54,614 nucleotides of DNA from Candidatus Erginobacter occultus (GCA_030765265.1 JAVCCZ010000249.1:1-54614); one strand, 5' to 3'. Shown: positions 45,107 to 53,314, counted from the stretch's first letter. Numbers and translations: made by a program. The notes: generated from the sequence alone by a model not told the origin.

Positions 45107-45751
45107 TTACATCCACTTGCCGAAATCAAAAGCCAGACCGGCGGTGGGGCCGCCCACCTCCTTGCCCTTCCCGTAGAGAAAAGTATAACCTCCCTGGAGC
45201 CGGATGACAAGGATATCCAGGACCTGGAAATCGAGACTGAGCAGCGGTTCCCAGTAGAAGAGGCCGACCGTGCGCCGCTCGTAAAGTTCCCAGTCATCGT
45301 CGAGTTCCGCCCGCTTGATCTCGGTGTCGATCGCCGCCCCGCCGAGGCTGAGGTCGAGGCTGAGCCCGAACTTCCCCGGCCGCCAGCTTAAGCCCGACGT
45401 CAGCCCGGCGGTGACCAAACCCAGGTTCAATTCATTGATATCGTCTTCCCCTTTTCCGGCCGCGCCGATGGTCCCCCCGAACCGCCAGCGGAGCGGAGAC
45501 CCCTCCCGCAGGGGGCCGGAGACCACTACCCGGGCGCCGTAGTAGAAGAGATCCTCCCGGTCCATTCTCCGGCCGAGGGAATCGGTCCAGTGATTCAGGT
45601 TCAGCCGCAGGTAGCGCCCCCAAACCCCGCCGCCAATGTAAGGGCCGGATTGGGGCGGCGCGGGGAGAGCTTGTTCCGCCGCCGCGTCCTCGGCCCGAAG
45701 CGCCGGAACCAGCAGACAGCAGCAGATAAACAGGATACCAGCGTATTTCAT
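45107..45751 (-). CDS. small outer-membrane beta-barrel protein, unknown function
   Basis: 214 residues from the ATG at 45751, 7 bases after AAAGGAGG. Signal peptide (about 1-19, cut at LRA-ED). The mature chain alternates polar and hydrophobic residues in strands (GGGVWGRYLRLNLNHW, LFYYGARVVVSG, LGLVTAGLTSGLSW, FGLSLDLSLGG, DILVIRLQGGYTFLYG) and ends in AGLAFDFGKWM, consistent with an eight- to ten-stranded barrel. No family is recognised. It is the last of three co-oriented unknown genes. Confidence 0.7.
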   Translation of the reverse strand: MKYAGILFICCCLLVPALRAEDAAAEQALPAPPQSGPYIGGGVWGRYLRLNLNHWTDSLGRRMDREDLFYYGARVVVSGPLREGSPLRWRFGGTIGAAGKGEDDINELNLGLVTAGLTSGLSWRPGKFGLSLDLSLGGAAIDTEIKRAELDDDWELYERRTVGLFYWEPLLSLDFQVLDILVIRLQGGYTFLYGKGKEVGGPTAGLAFDFGKWM

Positions 45752-45799
45752 CTCCCGTCCTCCTTTCTTTGTCATCACCTGAATTGAGGCAACTCCGGT

Positions 45800-47605
45800 T
45801 TACCGCCCGATCTCCACCACCGACCGTGACTGGATATACCCGTCCCGGTAAAGACTGATCCCCGCCCGGAAGCGAAAGATCTTGAACTCTTCCAGGACCC
45901 GGGTGAAATCGTTGAGCAGGTCGATCACCTGCCCGGAGTCGGGACCGGCGGGTTCGCCCTCCGCGGCCTCGGCGGACGGCGGGGGGAGGAACAGACCCAG
46001 CATCGCGGACGAAGAGCGGATGGTGGCGATCAGGGCTTCGATCTGGTCCTCGAGACGGCTGAAATATATCGCCGTCCCTTCGGAGCCCAGTTCCGCTTCC
46101 AGCCTCTGGAAATCGGGGTTTTGCCGGATACCCGGCTGTTGCCCGGAATAAGTATCGACAATTTCGGTAAAGACATCCCGCCGGCTGGCCAGGACCAGGA
46201 AATCGCCCACCCGCCCCGCGGTCGGGGCGGCCGGGAGGAGCGGGATGGGAAGGTAAAGGACGTGAAAGACGGCCCCGCCGTACTCTTCCTCGACCACGTT
46301 AAGCTCCGCTGCCCGCGACCGGAGGAGGTCGAGGAACCGGTCAGCTTCACCGGCCGATCCGACCCGGAGCAAGAGGGCCCAGCTGCCGGGATCGAAGAAC
46401 GAACTGCCCAGCGAGATGGTGGCAAAGGCGTACTCGTCCCCCAGCCAGGAGAGGATATCCTCCTCAACCCGGATCCCCGCCGCCTCCTGTTTTTCCGCCC
46501 AGAGTTCGGTCATCTCCCTCCCCTCGCGAGAACCAACGGCGAGGAAGCCGGCCAGGAGACGGTAAACCTTTCCCGGATCGAGGAACCCGGCCGAGAAACC
46601 GGCCGACCCGGCCGGGATGTAATCGAGGACTTCCCAGCTCCGGGGCGCCCTCTTCACCAGGTCGAGAACCGCCCGGCTCCCGGCATCTTCATCCAGGTAG
46701 AGACGGAACTCGTCCCGGTACCCCCGGGGGTCGAAGTCGAAGGTCCCGGCGATCCTCTCCACCGTCTCGACGGCGCGGCGGAGCCTCCGCAGGTAGTAGC
46801 CGGCCTTCGTCCGCGCCGGGAGGAAGACCCCGGCGGGCGGCCGTTCCGGGTATTCCTCCCGGAGCAGCGCGGCGAGCCGGGCGGCCAGCGGGCGGACCCG
46901 GAGATAGAAGACCCCCCGTCCGGACGGGTCCATCCCCCGGAAACTTTCCCGGAACCGGGGATCTTCGGCCAACGAAGGGCCGGTTCCCCGGCCGAGGAGG
47001 CGGGCATTGATCTTCTCCACCCGTTCCTTCCCGGCGGCGGCGACCAGGATATCGCCGGTCCGGCTCCAGGTTATCCGGCTCCCCTCGCCCTCGATCTCTT
47101 CCCCGGCGGCCAGTGAGAGTTCGGCCAGCCGGCGGAAATAATCGGCGTAGAGATCGGCCTTCTCTTCGGGGAGGCGGAAGATCAGGGCCGGAACCGGCGG
47201 CCGGCCCGGCTCTCCGGGGAAGACGGCCAGGGCGAATTCCCCGCCCAGGAGTTCCCGGAGGCTGACTTTCTCCCGCAGTTCGGCCAGCTTCCGCAACCGC
47301 CGTTCGGCGTCTCCGCGCCGCGGAAAATCGGGGAGACCCTGATCGCCGATCTCCTTGAGCCGCTCGACGATCCGGAGACGCCGGGCGGTTTGGATAAAGT
47401 CGAAGATCTCCAGGTCCTTCCACCCCCGCAGCCCCAGGTAGAAGAGGGCGTCGGCGTCCACCAGATCGAGGAAAGGCTGGACCGCTCCGGCACACGGGGA
47501 TGGCGCCGGGGGCGAAGGCGGCTCGGCTTCCCGGCAGGAAGCGATCGCCCCCGCCGCCAAAACGGCGGAGACAAGTATCCCCGCCCAGCGGCGGCACTTT
47601 TTCAT
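45800..47605 (-). CDS. DUF3352-like lipoprotein
   Basis: 601 residues from the ATG at 47605 (GGGGAG 7 bases before); a GTG one codon upstream is also open. A signal peptide with lipobox LAAGAIASC makes Cys24 the probable lipidated residue. The rest resembles the DUF3352 family: LVDADALFYLGLRGWKDL near the start, alternating alpha/beta repeats, EEDILSWLGDEYAFATISLG, and VGDFLVLASRRDVF. The function of the family is unknown. It lies 24 bases after the giant DHH gene, and a barrel protein gene follows 48 bases later. Confidence 0.75.
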   Translation of the reverse strand: MKKCRRWAGILVSAVLAAGAIASCREAEPPSPPAPSPCAGAVQPFLDLVDADALFYLGLRGWKDLEIFDFIQTARRLRIVERLKEIGDQGLPDFPRRGDAERRLRKLAELREKVSLRELLGGEFALAVFPGEPGRPPVPALIFRLPEEKADLYADYFRRLAELSLAAGEEIEGEGSRITWSRTGDILVAAAGKERVEKINARLLGRGTGPSLAEDPRFRESFRGMDPSGRGVFYLRVRPLAARLAALLREEYPERPPAGVFLPARTKAGYYLRRLRRAVETVERIAGTFDFDPRGYRDEFRLYLDEDAGSRAVLDLVKRAPRSWEVLDYIPAGSAGFSAGFLDPGKVYRLLAGFLAVGSREGREMTELWAEKQEAAGIRVEEDILSWLGDEYAFATISLGSSFFDPGSWALLLRVGSAGEADRFLDLLRSRAAELNVVEEEYGGAVFHVLYLPIPLLPAAPTAGRVGDFLVLASRRDVFTEIVDTYSGQQPGIRQNPDFQRLEAELGSEGTAIYFSRLEDQIEALIATIRSSSAMLGLFLPPPSAEAAEGEPAGPDSGQVIDLLNDFTRVLEEFKIFRFRAGISLYRDGYIQSRSVVEIGR

Positions 47606-47629
47606 CACTGACTCCCCGGCTGAAGTATT

Positions 47630-50600
47630 TTAGAGTTCATTCACCGGGCGGAAACTCTCCACCCGGTACCCGGCGGCGGCGGCCATCCGGGGGACGATAA
47701 ACTCCAGGTACTCCCGGTAGTTGTTGGGGGCCAGCGTGCTCACCGGGGAACCCTTGAGAAAGGCGGGCATACACTCGGCCACCGTCTCGTTGCCGAGAAA
47801 GAGCTTCCCGGCCACCGCTGCCATCGCCTCCGAACAGTCCAGGGAGGCGGTGGGGTCGTCGATCCGCATCAGGGCCGTGATCTGCTTGTCCCGGGGAAAG
47901 CTCAGGATATGTTCCCCGTAAACCAGGTAGTTCGGCTTCAGGCCGCGGAAATGGGCCGCCGCCAGGGGGAGTGAGGGCTCGAACTCGCCCTTGAACTTAT
48001 CGAACGGAGGAGAAAGGGCGGCGACGATCCGCAGCTTCTCCGCCTTGCCCTCCCCGCCTTCCGAAACCAGGTCGATCGCGTAGCTGTTGGCGTCCATCCG
48101 CCCGCCGACCTCGGCGGCGCGTTCCTCGACCCCGTCGAAGAAGACCGGGTTTACCTCCGCCGCCCGGTATGAACTGCCTTCCTCGATGAAGCCGGCCAGG
48201 ATCGAGGCCAGCTGGACCAGGTGGGGCGGGAGGAGTTTCCGCAGCCGTTTCTTCACCTTCGGGTTCTTCTTGATGTCGGCCACCGCCGAGACGTCGCCCC
48301 CGTCGTCCTCCGACCAGCCGATCGTCCGGGCCAGAGCGGGGAGGTCGAGGCGCTGTTTCGGGTCGTTGTTATTGACCAGGATCACCCGGTACATCATCCC
48401 CTGGGAGAAGAGCAGGTAATCGAAATCCTGGTGCCGGTTCAAGTAATTGAGGATCTGGAGGAATGAGGGCTTCTGCTCCCCGGCCTTTTTGTTCACCTTC
48501 GGCGCCCGGGTAAAGAGGACCCGGATGGCGTCTCCGGGATTCTCCTTCCCTTCCAGCTTGATCTCGAAGGTGTTCTCGGCCACGTGCTTGAGCGCCTTCT
48601 CGACCGGTTCGGTATATTCCGGGACCGTGACCGGGGCCACCCCCTGGTAAACCAGACCGGAGAAACCGGAGATCAGCTTCCCCAGGTACTCGATATATTC
48701 GAGGAAGTTGGTATCCCGGACCTTGTCCAGCCGCTCGACGGGAAAGACGGGGTTGGAGACCGGCTTGCAGGTGGCGGCGCCGGAGTGGCCGCCGTCGGCC
48801 TTGGTCCCCATCGCCTGGCAGACGGTGGAGAGGTTGAGCGAGGTCTCCTCCTCGTTGGGCTTCCGGGTGGTCATCAGGTGGGAGCCGTAGCAGTAGAAGA
48901 TGTAGTCGGTCGAGTAGCCTTTCTTCCCCATCCAGTAACCGATCGCCGAGGCGACGTTGATCTGGACTTCCCCCTTCTTGGCGTCGCAGAAGGGCGAGAT
49001 CCCGGCCATAATCCTCACGGCTGCTTCCGGATTGTCGGGCTTGGTAAAGTCAATCCTCCCCAGGACCTCCTCGGTCCGGGGGAGGACCTTATCCAGCCCC
49101 GCCTCGTAGGCCTTAACCTTCTCGTCCCAGCCGGTGATCCCCATAATCCCCCGCATACTCTCGTAGTCCTTGATCTTTTCCGCCAGCCCGGTGGCGATCT
49201 CCACCTTGCTGAACTTGGAGCCGATCAGCTTGGAGAGTTCCAACGCCAGCGGCTCCATCTCGACGTGAAGGTCCTGGAGCAGGGCGATCCTCTTCAGCTC
49301 GGCGAAGCCGGGGTTGTCCCAGGGTTTCCCCTCGATCCGGTCCTTGTAGACCAGGGCCGAGCCGCAGGTCTGCTTTTCGATCGGCAGCTCCTGCCCCCGG
49401 GGAAGGGCGACAACCTGGATATGCTTGATGACCCCCTCGCTCTCCAGCTTTTTTAAGAGGTTGATAATCTCCGGGGTGTAGGGGTGGTGGTCGTCGATAC
49501 TCTCGAAGTTTACGTCCTGTTCGTGGAGTTCCCGGAACTGCCGCTCGATCATCTGCAGCGTCACCCGCATCGCCCGGTCGACCCCGGCCGGCTTGTTTTC
49601 CTCCTTCTCCTCGAACTCCTCCTCCACCATCTCCGACCCGATCTCCTCGAAGGTCTCGGCCAGGGCGGCGTCGGGGGGCGGAACGTCGGAGGGGAGGAAG
49701 ATCTCCTGGAGATCGTCGAAGGTGATCGAGAAGCGGTAGCGCTCGTCGGGAGAGACCGGAATATACTTCAACTGGACCGAACCCCGCTCGTCGGTGGGGA
49801 GGGCGACCTCGTCCGAATCAGCCTCGGACCCGTCGGGGAGGATAAACTTCCCCGCCCCCTCCAACCGCTTGACCACGATCTCGATCCCGGGAACGGCCTT
49901 GCCGGTGGCGTCCTCGGTCAGCATAACCCGGATGGTGTAATCCTTCTCCTTCTCCTCTTTCGGCGGGGTATAATCCTTGATCCCCTCGACGATCTTCCCC
50001 AGTTCTCCCAGGGCGGAGTCGATATCGGCGACGATCCCCTGAAGTTCCCCGGAAGCGTCCCCGGGGATGGGGCCGGAGAGCGCGGTCATCACCCGCAGGT
50101 GCCGTTTCAGGTCGTCCCCGATCCCCTGGAGGCTCCGGGAGTAGGTCTCTTTGAGCTTCTCGTCCCAGGGGAGGTCGCGGAGCTGCTTCAAACCCCGGAT
50201 CAGGTAGGCGGTCATCTCCACTAAAACGATGATCAGTTCGTCGGTGTAGTTGACCCGGCCGTTGGTCGACATATCCCGCTTGATCGCCGCGTCAAAGGCG
50301 ATGATATTCTCCCGTTGATTCTCCCGCTTGATCAGGAGATCGACCATCTTCTCCTTCGAGGAGTCTCTGAGCTGGCCGAGGAGCGACTTCTTCAGGTCTT
50401 TGAGCTTGTTCCCGGCCAGGTTGGCGACCATCCCCTTGCGGTAGCCGGCCAGGAAGGCGGAACAGGATCCTCCCCCCTCCCCCATACACTGAACCTCGAG
50501 CTCGGTCAGACCCCGGATCAACTTCAAGACGTTGAGTGCCGTCAGCAGCGCCGCCCGTTCCTGGTGCTCCAGGACCTTGGGGATCTGCTTGAAGGTGGTG

Positions 50601-51007
50601 TTGAAGATATCCTTCACCTCCTGGCTGACCTGGTCGGCGTGCTCGATGATCCAGAGCTTGAACTCATCCATCTCCGAGGTGAAACGGTTGATCAGGTTGA
50701 TCGACTCGTCCTCTTCCATCACCAGCATCTTCATCCGGGTGGTCAGGGCGTCGATCGGGAAGTCGGGGAGGTAGATGTCGCAGCCGGAGTGGACGGCCAG
50801 GTGCCTCACCCCCTCGGAGTAATTCATAAAGTCAAACTCGTAATCCTCGCCGTAAACCGGGTCCCGGCCCAGTTCCTCTTTCAGGGAGTTCTGGGCCCAG
50901 GCCATATAAAAGGCGTTGGAGGAGACGGTGTCGAGATCGCCTCCCCCCTCTTTCCCGATCCCCCGGTTGACGCCCTTACCGTGGATAATAAAGATCTTCT
51001 TTCTCAT
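47630..51007 (-). CDS. giant DHH-superfamily protein with a large insertion and three DHHA1-like modules
   Basis: 1125 residues, cytosolic, no signal peptide. DHH phosphoesterase motifs appear in order but far apart: motif I GGDLDTVSS (22-30), motif II CDIYLPD (Asp82), motif III IDDHH (504-508) and a motif-IV-like TCGSALVY (547-554). Motifs II and III are usually a few dozen residues apart; here an insertion of about 420 residues holds a helical region (100-345), a beta domain like carboxypeptidase-regulatory or Cna-B folds (355-432) and an acidic stretch. Three related C-terminal modules (about 663-780, 826-930, 991-1106) resemble DHHA1; only the first keeps GGHSGAA (739-745). DHH proteins hydrolyse nucleic acid ends, small nucleotides or pyrophosphate. 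The start has GGGAGG 8 bases ahead. Confidence 0.7.
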   Translation of the reverse strand: MRKKIFIIHGKGVNRGIGKEGGGDLDTVSSNAFYMAWAQNSLKEELGRDPVYGEDYEFDFMNYSEGVRHLAVHSGCDIYLPDFPIDALTTRMKMLVMEEDESINLINRFTSEMDEFKLWIIEHADQVSQEVKDIFNTTFKQIPKVLEHQERAALLTALNVLKLIRGLTELEVQCMGEGGGSCSAFLAGYRKGMVANLAGNKLKDLKKSLLGQLRDSSKEKMVDLLIKRENQRENIIAFDAAIKRDMSTNGRVNYTDELIIVLVEMTAYLIRGLKQLRDLPWDEKLKETYSRSLQGIGDDLKRHLRVMTALSGPIPGDASGELQGIVADIDSALGELGKIVEGIKDYTPPKEEKEKDYTIRVMLTEDATGKAVPGIEIVVKRLEGAGKFILPDGSEADSDEVALPTDERGSVQLKYIPVSPDERYRFSITFDDLQEIFLPSDVPPPDAALAETFEEIGSEMVEEEFEEKEENKPAGVDRAMRVTLQMIERQFRELHEQDVNFESIDDHHPYTPEIINLLKKLESEGVIKHIQVVALPRGQELPIEKQTCGSALVYKDRIEGKPWDNPGFAELKRIALLQDLHVEMEPLALELSKLIGSKFSKVEIATGLAEKIKDYESMRGIMGITGWDEKVKAYEAGLDKVLPRTEEVLGRIDFTKPDNPEAAVRIMAGISPFCDAKKGEVQINVASAIGYWMGKKGYSTDYIFYCYGSHLMTTRKPNEEETSLNLSTVCQAMGTKADGGHSGAATCKPVSNPVFPVERLDKVRDTNFLEYIEYLGKLISGFSGLVYQGVAPVTVPEYTEPVEKALKHVAENTFEIKLEGKENPGDAIRVLFTRAPKVNKKAGEQKPSFLQILNYLNRHQDFDYLLFSQGMMYRVILVNNNDPKQRLDLPALARTIGWSEDDGGDVSAVADIKKNPKVKKRLRKLLPPHLVQLASILAGFIEEGSSYRAAEVNPVFFDGVEERAAEVGGRMDANSYAIDLVSEGGEGKAEKLRIVAALSPPFDKFKGEFEPSLPLAAAHFRGLKPNYLVYGEHILSFPRDKQITALMRIDDPTASLDCSEAMAAVAGKLFLGNETVAECMPAFLKGSPVSTLAPNNYREYLEFIVPRMAAAAGYRVESFRPVNEL

Positions 51008-51052
51008 TTGCCTCGCCTCCCGTCGGCGAACCGGCCGCCGCGCCCGAAATAA

Positions 51053-51132: not shown

Positions 51133-51924
51133 ATGGTTGGCAACCGGACGGGGGAAATCGAACGGGAAAAATCGGTCCAGGGACGGGCCTGGGACTCCGT
51201 CCATTTCGGCTACTTCTCCGACCCGGAGACGGCGGCCGTCCTGGTCGATACGGTCGTCCGCCAATCCGCGAAATCCCGCCCTCAGACCATCGTCGATCTC
51301 GGCGGGGGGACGGGATTTATCTTGAGCGAGCTGGCCCGAAAGGGGCTCGACCCGGGGATCAACCTGGTCAACCTCGATCTCTCCCCGGCCCAGCTGGCCG
51401 CCGTCCGCCTCCCCGGGGTGCGGAGGGTCGAGGGCGCGATCGGGAATTTCCGACGGGAAGATCTCGCGGCGGGAACCGGAGCGATCCTCTTCGTGATGCG
51501 GTCGGTGCTTCACTACCCGGGGCCGGAAGGGCTGGGGCCGGCGCTGAGGCATATCCGTTCTCAGATGAGGCGTGGAGAGTACTTCATCCACCAGACCGCC
51601 TGTTTCGACAACAAACCGGCGGCGGAATGTTTGAACGCGATCTATGCCGCGCTGAAAACCGGGAAGCGCTACCCGGCGACCGCGACCCTGCTCGGGCGGA
51701 TGGAGGAGGCGGGCTTCGCCGTCGACGGACAACTGACGGCTCCGGCCCTCGCCCTGACGGCGGCGGCGCTGGGTGAACGCTACGACCGAAGCCCGGCCGG
51801 AATGGAGAAGATCGGACGAAAGGTAATCGAAAAGTACGGCGGCCGTCCCGGCGTCTTCAAAACCGGGGAGAGCGGCTGGACCGCCTATCTCCATTACCGG
51901 GTCTTTCTCACCCGGGCGGATTGA
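51133..51924 (+). CDS. class I SAM-dependent methyltransferase
   Basis: 263 residues. SAM motif I is TIVDLGGGTGFI (about 52-63), followed by VNLDLSPAQLAAV and a beta-sheet region ILFVMRSVLHYPG. The N-terminus contains AWDSVHFGYFSDPETA, and the C-terminus WTAYLHYRVFLTRAD is consistent with a small-molecule methyltransferase. The substrate cannot be read from the sequence. It diverges from the giant DHH gene. A GAAGGG ribosome site precedes the ATG. Confidence 0.82.
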   Translation: MVGNRTGEIEREKSVQGRAWDSVHFGYFSDPETAAVLVDTVVRQSAKSRPQTIVDLGGGTGFILSELARKGLDPGINLVNLDLSPAQLAAVRLPGVRRVEGAIGNFRREDLAAGTGAILFVMRSVLHYPGPEGLGPALRHIRSQMRRGEYFIHQTACFDNKPAAECLNAIYAALKTGKRYPATATLLGRMEEAGFAVDGQLTAPALALTAAALGERYDRSPAGMEKIGRKVIEKYGGRPGVFKTGESGWTAYLHYRVFLTRAD

Positions 51925-52688: not shown

Positions 52689-53033
52689 CTAATCGAGAGG
52701 CTTCTCCTTTTCTAACATAGAACAAATATGATCTTTCAGATCAGGAAGTTCGACTTCAATAACTCGCCAGACAATATCCAGGTCAATCCCGAAGTAATCG
52801 TGGACGAGGATATTTCTCATCCCCCTGATCTTTTTCCACGGCACTTCCGGATATAAGATCTTTAATTCGTCGGATAGTTTGCCGATGGCTTCGCCAATGA
52901 TTTGCAGGTGGTAAACTACCCAGGTCTGAATTAATTCCTCATCGTTAAAGGCGTCTCTCCCTTGAGTCGCGTATTTTTCTATCCGTTCAATCGCTTCCTG
53001 AATATCTAACAGTCTCTGATAGTCACGATTCAT
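52689..53033 (-). CDS. hepT: HepT-like toxin (HEPN ribonuclease, DUF86)
   Basis: 114 residues, all-helical HEPN fold. The RX4HXY catalytic motif is RNILVHDY. HepT is the toxin partner of the MntA nucleotidyltransferase, which inactivates it by adding AMP to the tyrosine of this motif. The start overlaps the mntA stop by 4 bases. The base composition is visibly more AT-rich than the neighbouring genes, pointing to acquisition by transfer. Confidence 0.9.
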   Translation of the reverse strand: MNRDYQRLLDIQEAIERIEKYATQGRDAFNDEELIQTWVVYHLQIIGEAIGKLSDELKILYPEVPWKKIRGMRNILVHDYFGIDLDIVWRVIEVELPDLKDHICSMLEKEKPLD

Positions 53034-53314
53034 AGCGGAAGCGCCTCCTGTAAAACTTCTTCGCGGAACCGTTCCCGAAGCCCGTTTTTTGTCACGACGT
53101 CAACCTTGCACCCAAGCGCTTCCTCCAGATCTACCTGAAACCCACCCAGATCGAATAAACTCCGCCCCGGTTCCATCTCCACCAAAAAATCAAGATCACT
53201 GCCCGGACCGTCGTCGCCGCGTGCGGTCGAACCAAACAATCTAATCGATGTAATGCCGTATCGACGAGCGAGCGAAATAATCGTGTCGCGGTGTTCTTTT
53301 ACTCTGTCAATCAT
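53030..53314 (-). CDS. mntA: MntA-like antitoxin (minimal nucleotidyltransferase)
   Basis: 94 residues. The nucleotidyltransferase motif GS(X)10DXD is GSTARGDDGPGSDLDFLVE, preceded by ITSIRLFG. MntA-type antitoxins AMPylate the HepT toxin. It is the first gene of the pair, as usual for this class, and its stop overlaps hepT by 4 bases. An extended -10 promoter lies 39 bases upstream of the ATG. Confidence 0.9.
   Translation of the reverse strand: MIDRVKEHRDTIISLARRYGITSIRLFGSTARGDDGPGSDLDFLVEMEPGRSLFDLGGFQVDLEEALGCKVDVVTKNGLRERFREEVLQEALPL

Follow-up and report, generated by a model that had tools for sequence, protein, structure and literature searches.

Gene organization of the locus

The window, by which we mean the whole 54,614-nucleotide stretch of Candidatus Erginobacter occultus DNA analysed here (GCA_030765265.1 JAVCCZ010000249.1:1-54614), carries a giant gene on the minus strand at positions 47630..51007. 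The ORF starts with ATG at 51007, eight bases downstream of a ribosome-binding-site-like GGAGG recognized by eye (51016..51020, minus strand), and encodes a protein of 1125 residues (P0001) that has homologues in other genomes. Searches of Pfam, NCBIfam and PADLOC gave no usable match (best Pfam E 0.08), and neither did a sequence search against PDB chains. Searched directly, P0001 showed no match to PF01368 (Pfam DHH) at E<=1 or to PF02272 (Pfam DHHA1). Current Pfam and NCBIfam models do not detect the family, and its members can be expected to be annotated as hypothetical proteins. The analyses described below place P0001 in a DHH-DHHA1 phosphoesterase family that has not been described. Hydrolysis of nucleotides and nucleic acids is the general task of DHH enzymes, which are usually compact.

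The giant gene heads a run of three genes, which the initial annotation had described as unknown; the run stands, but the description holds only in part. The second gene (45800..47608, minus strand), located about 21 bp after the DHH gene and probably in the same operon, encodes a DUF3352 protein (PF11832, E 4.1e-11) with a lipoprotein-like signal identified by eye. The third (45107..45778, minus strand) encodes a 223-aa protein with a Sec-like signal, also identified by eye, and belongs to no family in Pfam or NCBIfam. This gene order, including the third gene, recurs in L010 and L011, both close relatives, and is absent from L008; in L007, the DUF3352 gene follows the DHH gene after a spacer. 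Among the lineages compared, no neighbour was common to the DHH gene across phyla. The operon partners, being conserved in close relatives only and not in L008 or other lineages, were rejected as a clue to function.

Upstream, a methyltransferase gene (51133-51921) is divergent from the giant DHH gene and is absent at that position in L011. Further on, a HepT-like HEPN and nucleotidyltransferase pair (52692-53314; MntA-HepT type toxin-antitoxin, Pfam) lies between a STAS gene and an epimerase gene. The latter two are adjacent in L011, which suggests that the pair was inserted in this lineage only.

A DHH domain split between motifs II and III

Residues 1-95 (50723..51007, minus strand as for all parts of P0001 below) make up the first DHH half and contain beta1 (IFIIHG), with which the protein starts, motif I (GGDLDT, residues 22-27; 50927..50944), in which D24 and D26 are invariant in the core alignment, and motif II (PD, with D82 at 50762..50764), invariant in all family members that carry it. 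The second half with a helical linker (residues 478-646; 49070..49576), recognized from an AlphaFold2 model, the alignment and Foldseek, contains motif III (DHHP, residues 506-509; 49481..49492), invariant family-wide, and a candidate motif IV (D579 in QDL; 49271..49273), which is invariant and located 71-73 residues past DHHP in nearly all relatives measured. The order of motifs I-IV is kept, and D24, D26, D82, D506-H507-H508 and D579 are invariant in the family. In the core alignment of 16 relatives, IHG, GGDLDT, the PD of motif II, DHHP, CG, QDL, R715 and DGGH were among the invariant elements. NrnA-type proteins have a His ahead of the Asp pair of motif I; in P0001 this His is not at its usual spacing.

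D82 and D506 are separated by 424 residues. The distance from motif I to DHHP is 484 residues in P0001 versus 78 in an uninterrupted paralogue, which gives a net insertion of about 400 residues. A full-length profile search of three Lindowbacteria-type genomes identified, in each, the split protein and a second gene. In G059 and G060, this second gene matched profile positions 2-88 and, after a gap of only about 10 bp, positions 485-790; in G061 the two profile parts lie on separate contigs. Because uninterrupted paralogues, in which the motifs have the spacing of ordinary DHH proteins, match residues 2-88 and then directly 485-790, there is strong evidence, at the level of sequence, that residues 1-95 and 478-646 form one DHH core with about 400 residues inserted between motifs II and III. 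The initial annotation had reported the four motifs in order, with motifs II and III about 420 residues apart, and had placed residues 20-90 and 500-560 in one DHH core; the paralogues and the alignment bear this out.

In the full-length AlphaFold2 model of P0001 (pLDDT 79, pTM 0.69), a helical region and a beta-domain lie between motifs II and III, as had been proposed. The helical part (residues 96-350; 49958..50722) is the most variable large segment of the protein. The beta-domain (residues 351-440; 49688..49957) is probably the part responsible for weak Foldseek matches to the small beta-domains of 4lba and intimin D00-D0. It is followed by an acidic, probably disordered linker (residues 441-477; 49577..49687), in which 14 of the 37 residues are D or E and pLDDT is low over 441-474. 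The helical insert also matched CDK5RAP3 weakly by sequence (E 0.005), but searching with the family profile gave E 1.1, and the match was discarded as a chance effect of helical composition.

Over the first DHH half, relatives are 69-91% identical to P0001. For the second half together with the first DHHA1 module the range is 43-81%, and across the helical insertion it is 17-65%. As judged from these alignments, constraint is concentrated on the predicted catalytic parts of the protein.

Three DHHA1 modules at the C-terminus

The C-terminal part of P0001 is composed of three modules. Module 1 (residues 647-794; 48626..49069), identified by alignment, hhalign and Foldseek, has intact R715 (48863..48865), which aligns with the Arg of the SIR/SLR segment in ordinary DHHA1 domains, and an intact DGGHSGAA, whose DGGH (residues 738-741; 48785..48796) is an invariant GGGH-type motif. 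Module 2 (residues 808-956; 48140..48586; hhalign E 1.4e-25 versus module 1) has GGD in place of GGH, in DGGDVSAV at residue 902. Module 3 (residues 972-1123; 47639..48094; E 2.3e-12 versus module 1 and 8.5e-13 versus module 2) has lost both motifs. Pairwise hhalign scores of the three modules were 150, 76 and 79, whereas the decoy maximum was 24 and 0 of 100 decoys reached the score in each comparison; the modules also share a common order of predicted secondary structure in the AlphaFold2 model. By profile comparison, homology among all three modules is far beyond chance. The initial annotation had already recognized three related modules with GGHSGAA kept only in the first, GGDVSAV in the second and a more worn third; the module boundaries given here are wider.

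In the relative L031, the second module still has DGGHPRAAS, which marks module 2 as a genuine DHHA1 copy whose decay took place in the lineage of the window. The worn module 3 is confined to some lineages. Three modules are found in the window lineage and L032/L033, two in Lindowbacteria and L030/L031, and one in uninterrupted relatives. Wherever both features can be read, insertion and duplication occur together: all relatives carrying the insertion have two or more modules, and all those lacking it have a single one.

Relationship to DHH-DHHA1 proteins

We compared the core profile with sets of NrnA-like and RecJ-like proteins from the same genomes using hhalign. The scores were 35.3, 27.5 and 27.8, each above 100 of 100 column-permuted decoys, with modest absolute significance. 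In these registers, motifs I-III aligned with RecJ (with the profile of the N-terminal half of DHH) and the Arg/GGH region with NrnA.

An AlphaFold2 model of residues 478-801 (pLDDT 76) was searched against PDB with Foldseek. The matches were, in order, PggH (8.9e-5) and the Helicobacter pylori DHH-type protein 6mtz (2.6e-4), then archaeal RecJ-Cdc45, PPX1 (rank 6), DhhP, RecJ and AlaRS domains. In BFVD, the named top matches of the same model include phage NrnB and DHH phosphohydrolases. With the full-length model, the DHH matches were weak (E 0.07-0.3) and comprised PPX1 and family II pyrophosphatases, a result that points the same way without being decisive. The modelled structure supports a DHHA1-like fold for the region of module 1, and with the homology among the modules this agrees with the earlier assignment of the C-terminus to DHHA1 rather than to an unrelated fold.

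P0004 of G128 is a distant, uninterrupted relative that serves as a bridge: it carries TDFDAVAS, FLDHHP and a canonical GGGGH, is recovered with the family profile at 9.8e-15 and reaches Pfam DHHA1 at E 0.012. A protein of G269:C92, 45% identical to P0004, scores 28.6 bits with Pfam DHHA1, above the cut-off, and 23 bits with PF01368, under the cut-off of 28.1.

Distant DHH-DHHA1 proteins with canonical GGGGH are encoded at L103:961-2139 (minus strand) and L123:2803-3894; the L103 protein falls under the Pfam cut-off. Such proteins connect the giant family to ordinary DHHA1 proteins.

The initial annotation knew of no described family with this layout, and none turned up in Pfam, NCBIfam, PADLOC, PDB sequences or such open-access papers as we searched. 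The family is an architectural variant of the DHH-DHHA1 superfamily without a name in these libraries and papers.

Distribution and uninterrupted relatives

Homologues with the same insertion, which the initial annotation had suggested looking for, were found in Auribacterota, Lindowbacteria and further lineages. Within the phylum, close homologues at 56-87% identity were found in genomes from the genus, family and order of the window genome, as well as in one further lineage. Those in named records belong to Candidatus Euphemobacter and Candidatus Tritonobacter, which we take, from a taxonomy lookup and general knowledge, to be members of Auribacterota. Homologues in Candidatus Lindowbacteria show about 40% identity. 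The gene was present in 15 of 384 genomes sampled around the window genome, and domain-wide genome samples revealed further lineages with homologues. The phyla of G079/G226 and of G128/G269 are represented by two genomes each in the sample, and both members carry the gene. Because homologues recur across genera, phyla and genome samples, the giant DHH gene is a patchily distributed chromosomal gene and no assembly artefact. No relative of the giant protein was found in viral contigs, and none of the compact paralogue or the bridge protein in phages and plasmids. Matches to alphaproteobacterial L015 and L016 in the genome scan were rejected; we read these proteins as LpxK-like, with FDDHHPYT occurring by chance.

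The compact paralogue P0002 (387 aa) shows the uninterrupted order VFVIHGRG...EEGGDLDTVSSN...ADLYIPDLPLD...HFLDHHPW...QQDL...TTRK...DGGHPEAAS. Such paralogues of 387-393 aa are encoded in Lindowbacteria at L018:9680-10858 and L019:6097-7257 (minus strand; the 387-aa form); they are conserved, yet have no Pfam or NCBIfam name. A different arrangement was seen in L027-L029: motifs II and III are not separated by an insertion, and about 170-190 residues are instead added after beta1 (IFIIHG), ahead of motif I. Two of these proteins, L028 and L029, begin with a GYF_2 domain.

The bridge proteins were unusable as a root, their branch being too long, and we used only the split between uninterrupted and inserted forms in an unrooted tree. 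The two forms separated with mixed support (SH-aLRT 99, ultrafast bootstrap 69). The uninterrupted relatives, present in genomes that also have a split form, show how the giant protein was built.

Predicted function of P0001

Among known systems, P0001 most resembles the stand-alone phosphodiesterases NrnA, NrnB and PggH, with which it shares motif order, motif spacing once the insertion is subtracted, the DHHA1 GGH and Arg, and the best Foldseek matches. It differs from them in the insertion of about 400 residues, two more DHHA1 modules and DGGH instead of GGGH, and it is beyond the reach of Pfam. NrnA is a stand-alone DHH-DHHA1 protein of about 320-350 aa, compared with 1125 aa for P0001. 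Module 1 has TTRKPN with a single invariant Arg and lacks the RxRxR motif of the NrnA DHHA1 domain (PMC9757072).

Catalysis in the DHH superfamily is metal-dependent. Since the motif residues and the Arg and GGH of module 1 are all invariant, P0001 is most likely catalytically active. We consider it probable, with some reserve, that P0001 is a cytoplasmic, probably Mn2+-dependent DHH-DHHA1 phosphodiesterase acting on a small 5'-phosphorylated substrate, with triplicated DHHA1 and a lid, sensor or docking insertion between motifs II and III. Residues 1-95 and 478-646 would fold together and hold the metal ions by D24, D26, D82, H507/H508 and D579, while module 1 (R715 and GGH 739-741) would close over the cleft and bind the phosphate end of the substrate, as in NrnA, PggH and RecJ. 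In NrnA, the GGGH and Arg residues of DHHA1 are the proposed substrate-recognition elements (PMC9757072), which makes small nucleotides or short oligonucleotides with a 5'-phosphate the likeliest substrate class. Modules 2 and 3, with their recognition residues lost, probably serve as a scaffold or secondary grip, and the insertion of about 400 residues may be a lid, a sensor or a docking platform. The window genome also contains several ordinary DHH/DHHA1 genes, NrnA-like and RecJ-like, and the giant protein is therefore an additional enzyme.

The specificity of PggH, the best PDB match, for pGpG raises the possibility, which we judge unlikely, of a phosphodiesterase in a c-di-AMP or c-di-GMP pathway that cleaves the cyclic dinucleotide or pNpN and uses the helical-beta insertion as a sensor in a GdpP-like function. 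GdpP, a c-di-AMP phosphodiesterase, is likewise a multidomain DHH-DHHA1 enzyme with a putative sensory part, but its TM, PAS and GGDEF regions lie ahead of DHH, whereas the extra part of P0001 lies inside DHH and is combined with tandem DHHA1; a Pfam search of P0001 detected none of the GdpP domains, PAS and GGDEF included. Each of the 14 carrier genomes tested encodes a single diadenylate cyclase (PF02457), but 11 of 14 control genomes had the enzyme as well, and ordinary DHH-DHHA1 proteins of the carrier genomes could do the job.

The helical insertion with its acidic stretch fits a feature of Cdc45, although it is much larger. Cdc45 is, by analogy, a precedent for a helical insertion with an acidic disordered part inside a DHH domain (PMC4873980); that insertion is of about 80 residues and is accompanied by one DHHA1, whereas P0001 has about 400 residues with a beta-domain, and intact catalytic residues, which Cdc45 has lost. 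A non-catalytic, Cdc45-like scaffold with a DHH-DHHA1 fold, in which the helical acidic insertion makes protein-protein contacts, would accommodate the degeneration of modules 2 and 3. Invariance of the motif I-IV residues, R715 and GGH in all relatives, over several lineages, is unexpected of a dead scaffold, and we find this explanation distinctly unlikely.

P0001 shares with RecJ and archaeal RecJ-Cdc45 the DHH-DHHA1 fold, the alignment of motifs I-III and Foldseek matches of the 478-801 model, which would suit a RecJ-like single-strand exonuclease whose extra DHHA1 modules lengthen the nucleic-acid channel. P0001 departs from these proteins in that no OB-fold was recognized, the insertion lies inside the DHH domain and extra DHHA1 copies are present. 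An exonuclease activity of this kind appears very unlikely: the Arg and His are missing from modules 2 and 3, the gene has no conserved repair neighbours, and RecJ-like DHH proteins are already present in carrier genomes. An exopolyphosphatase or pyrophosphatase like PPX1 or family II PPases is highly improbable, for in spite of the matches to these enzymes and a motif I, DLDT, that presumably resembles DLDS of PPX1, the C-terminal domain carries GGH and Arg as DHHA1 domains do, and the closest Foldseek matches are DHHA1 enzymes.

A further reading, which we offer tentatively and regard as doubtful, is a new kind of split-platform DHH enzyme: a large sensory or docking unit would be inserted at the active-site lip, and DHHA1 copies in tandem would bind extended segments of one substrate or several regulatory nucleotides. 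Its pathway, in little-known bacterial phyla, would be one of nucleotide signalling or RNA-end processing.

The family provides a natural series across several candidate phyla, consisting of uninterrupted forms, forms with an insertion before motif I, and forms in which the split falls between motifs II and III and DHHA1 is present two or three times. Split and uninterrupted forms share Lindowbacteria genomes, which makes both the tolerance of a 400-residue insertion and the purpose of duplicated substrate-binding domains directly testable.
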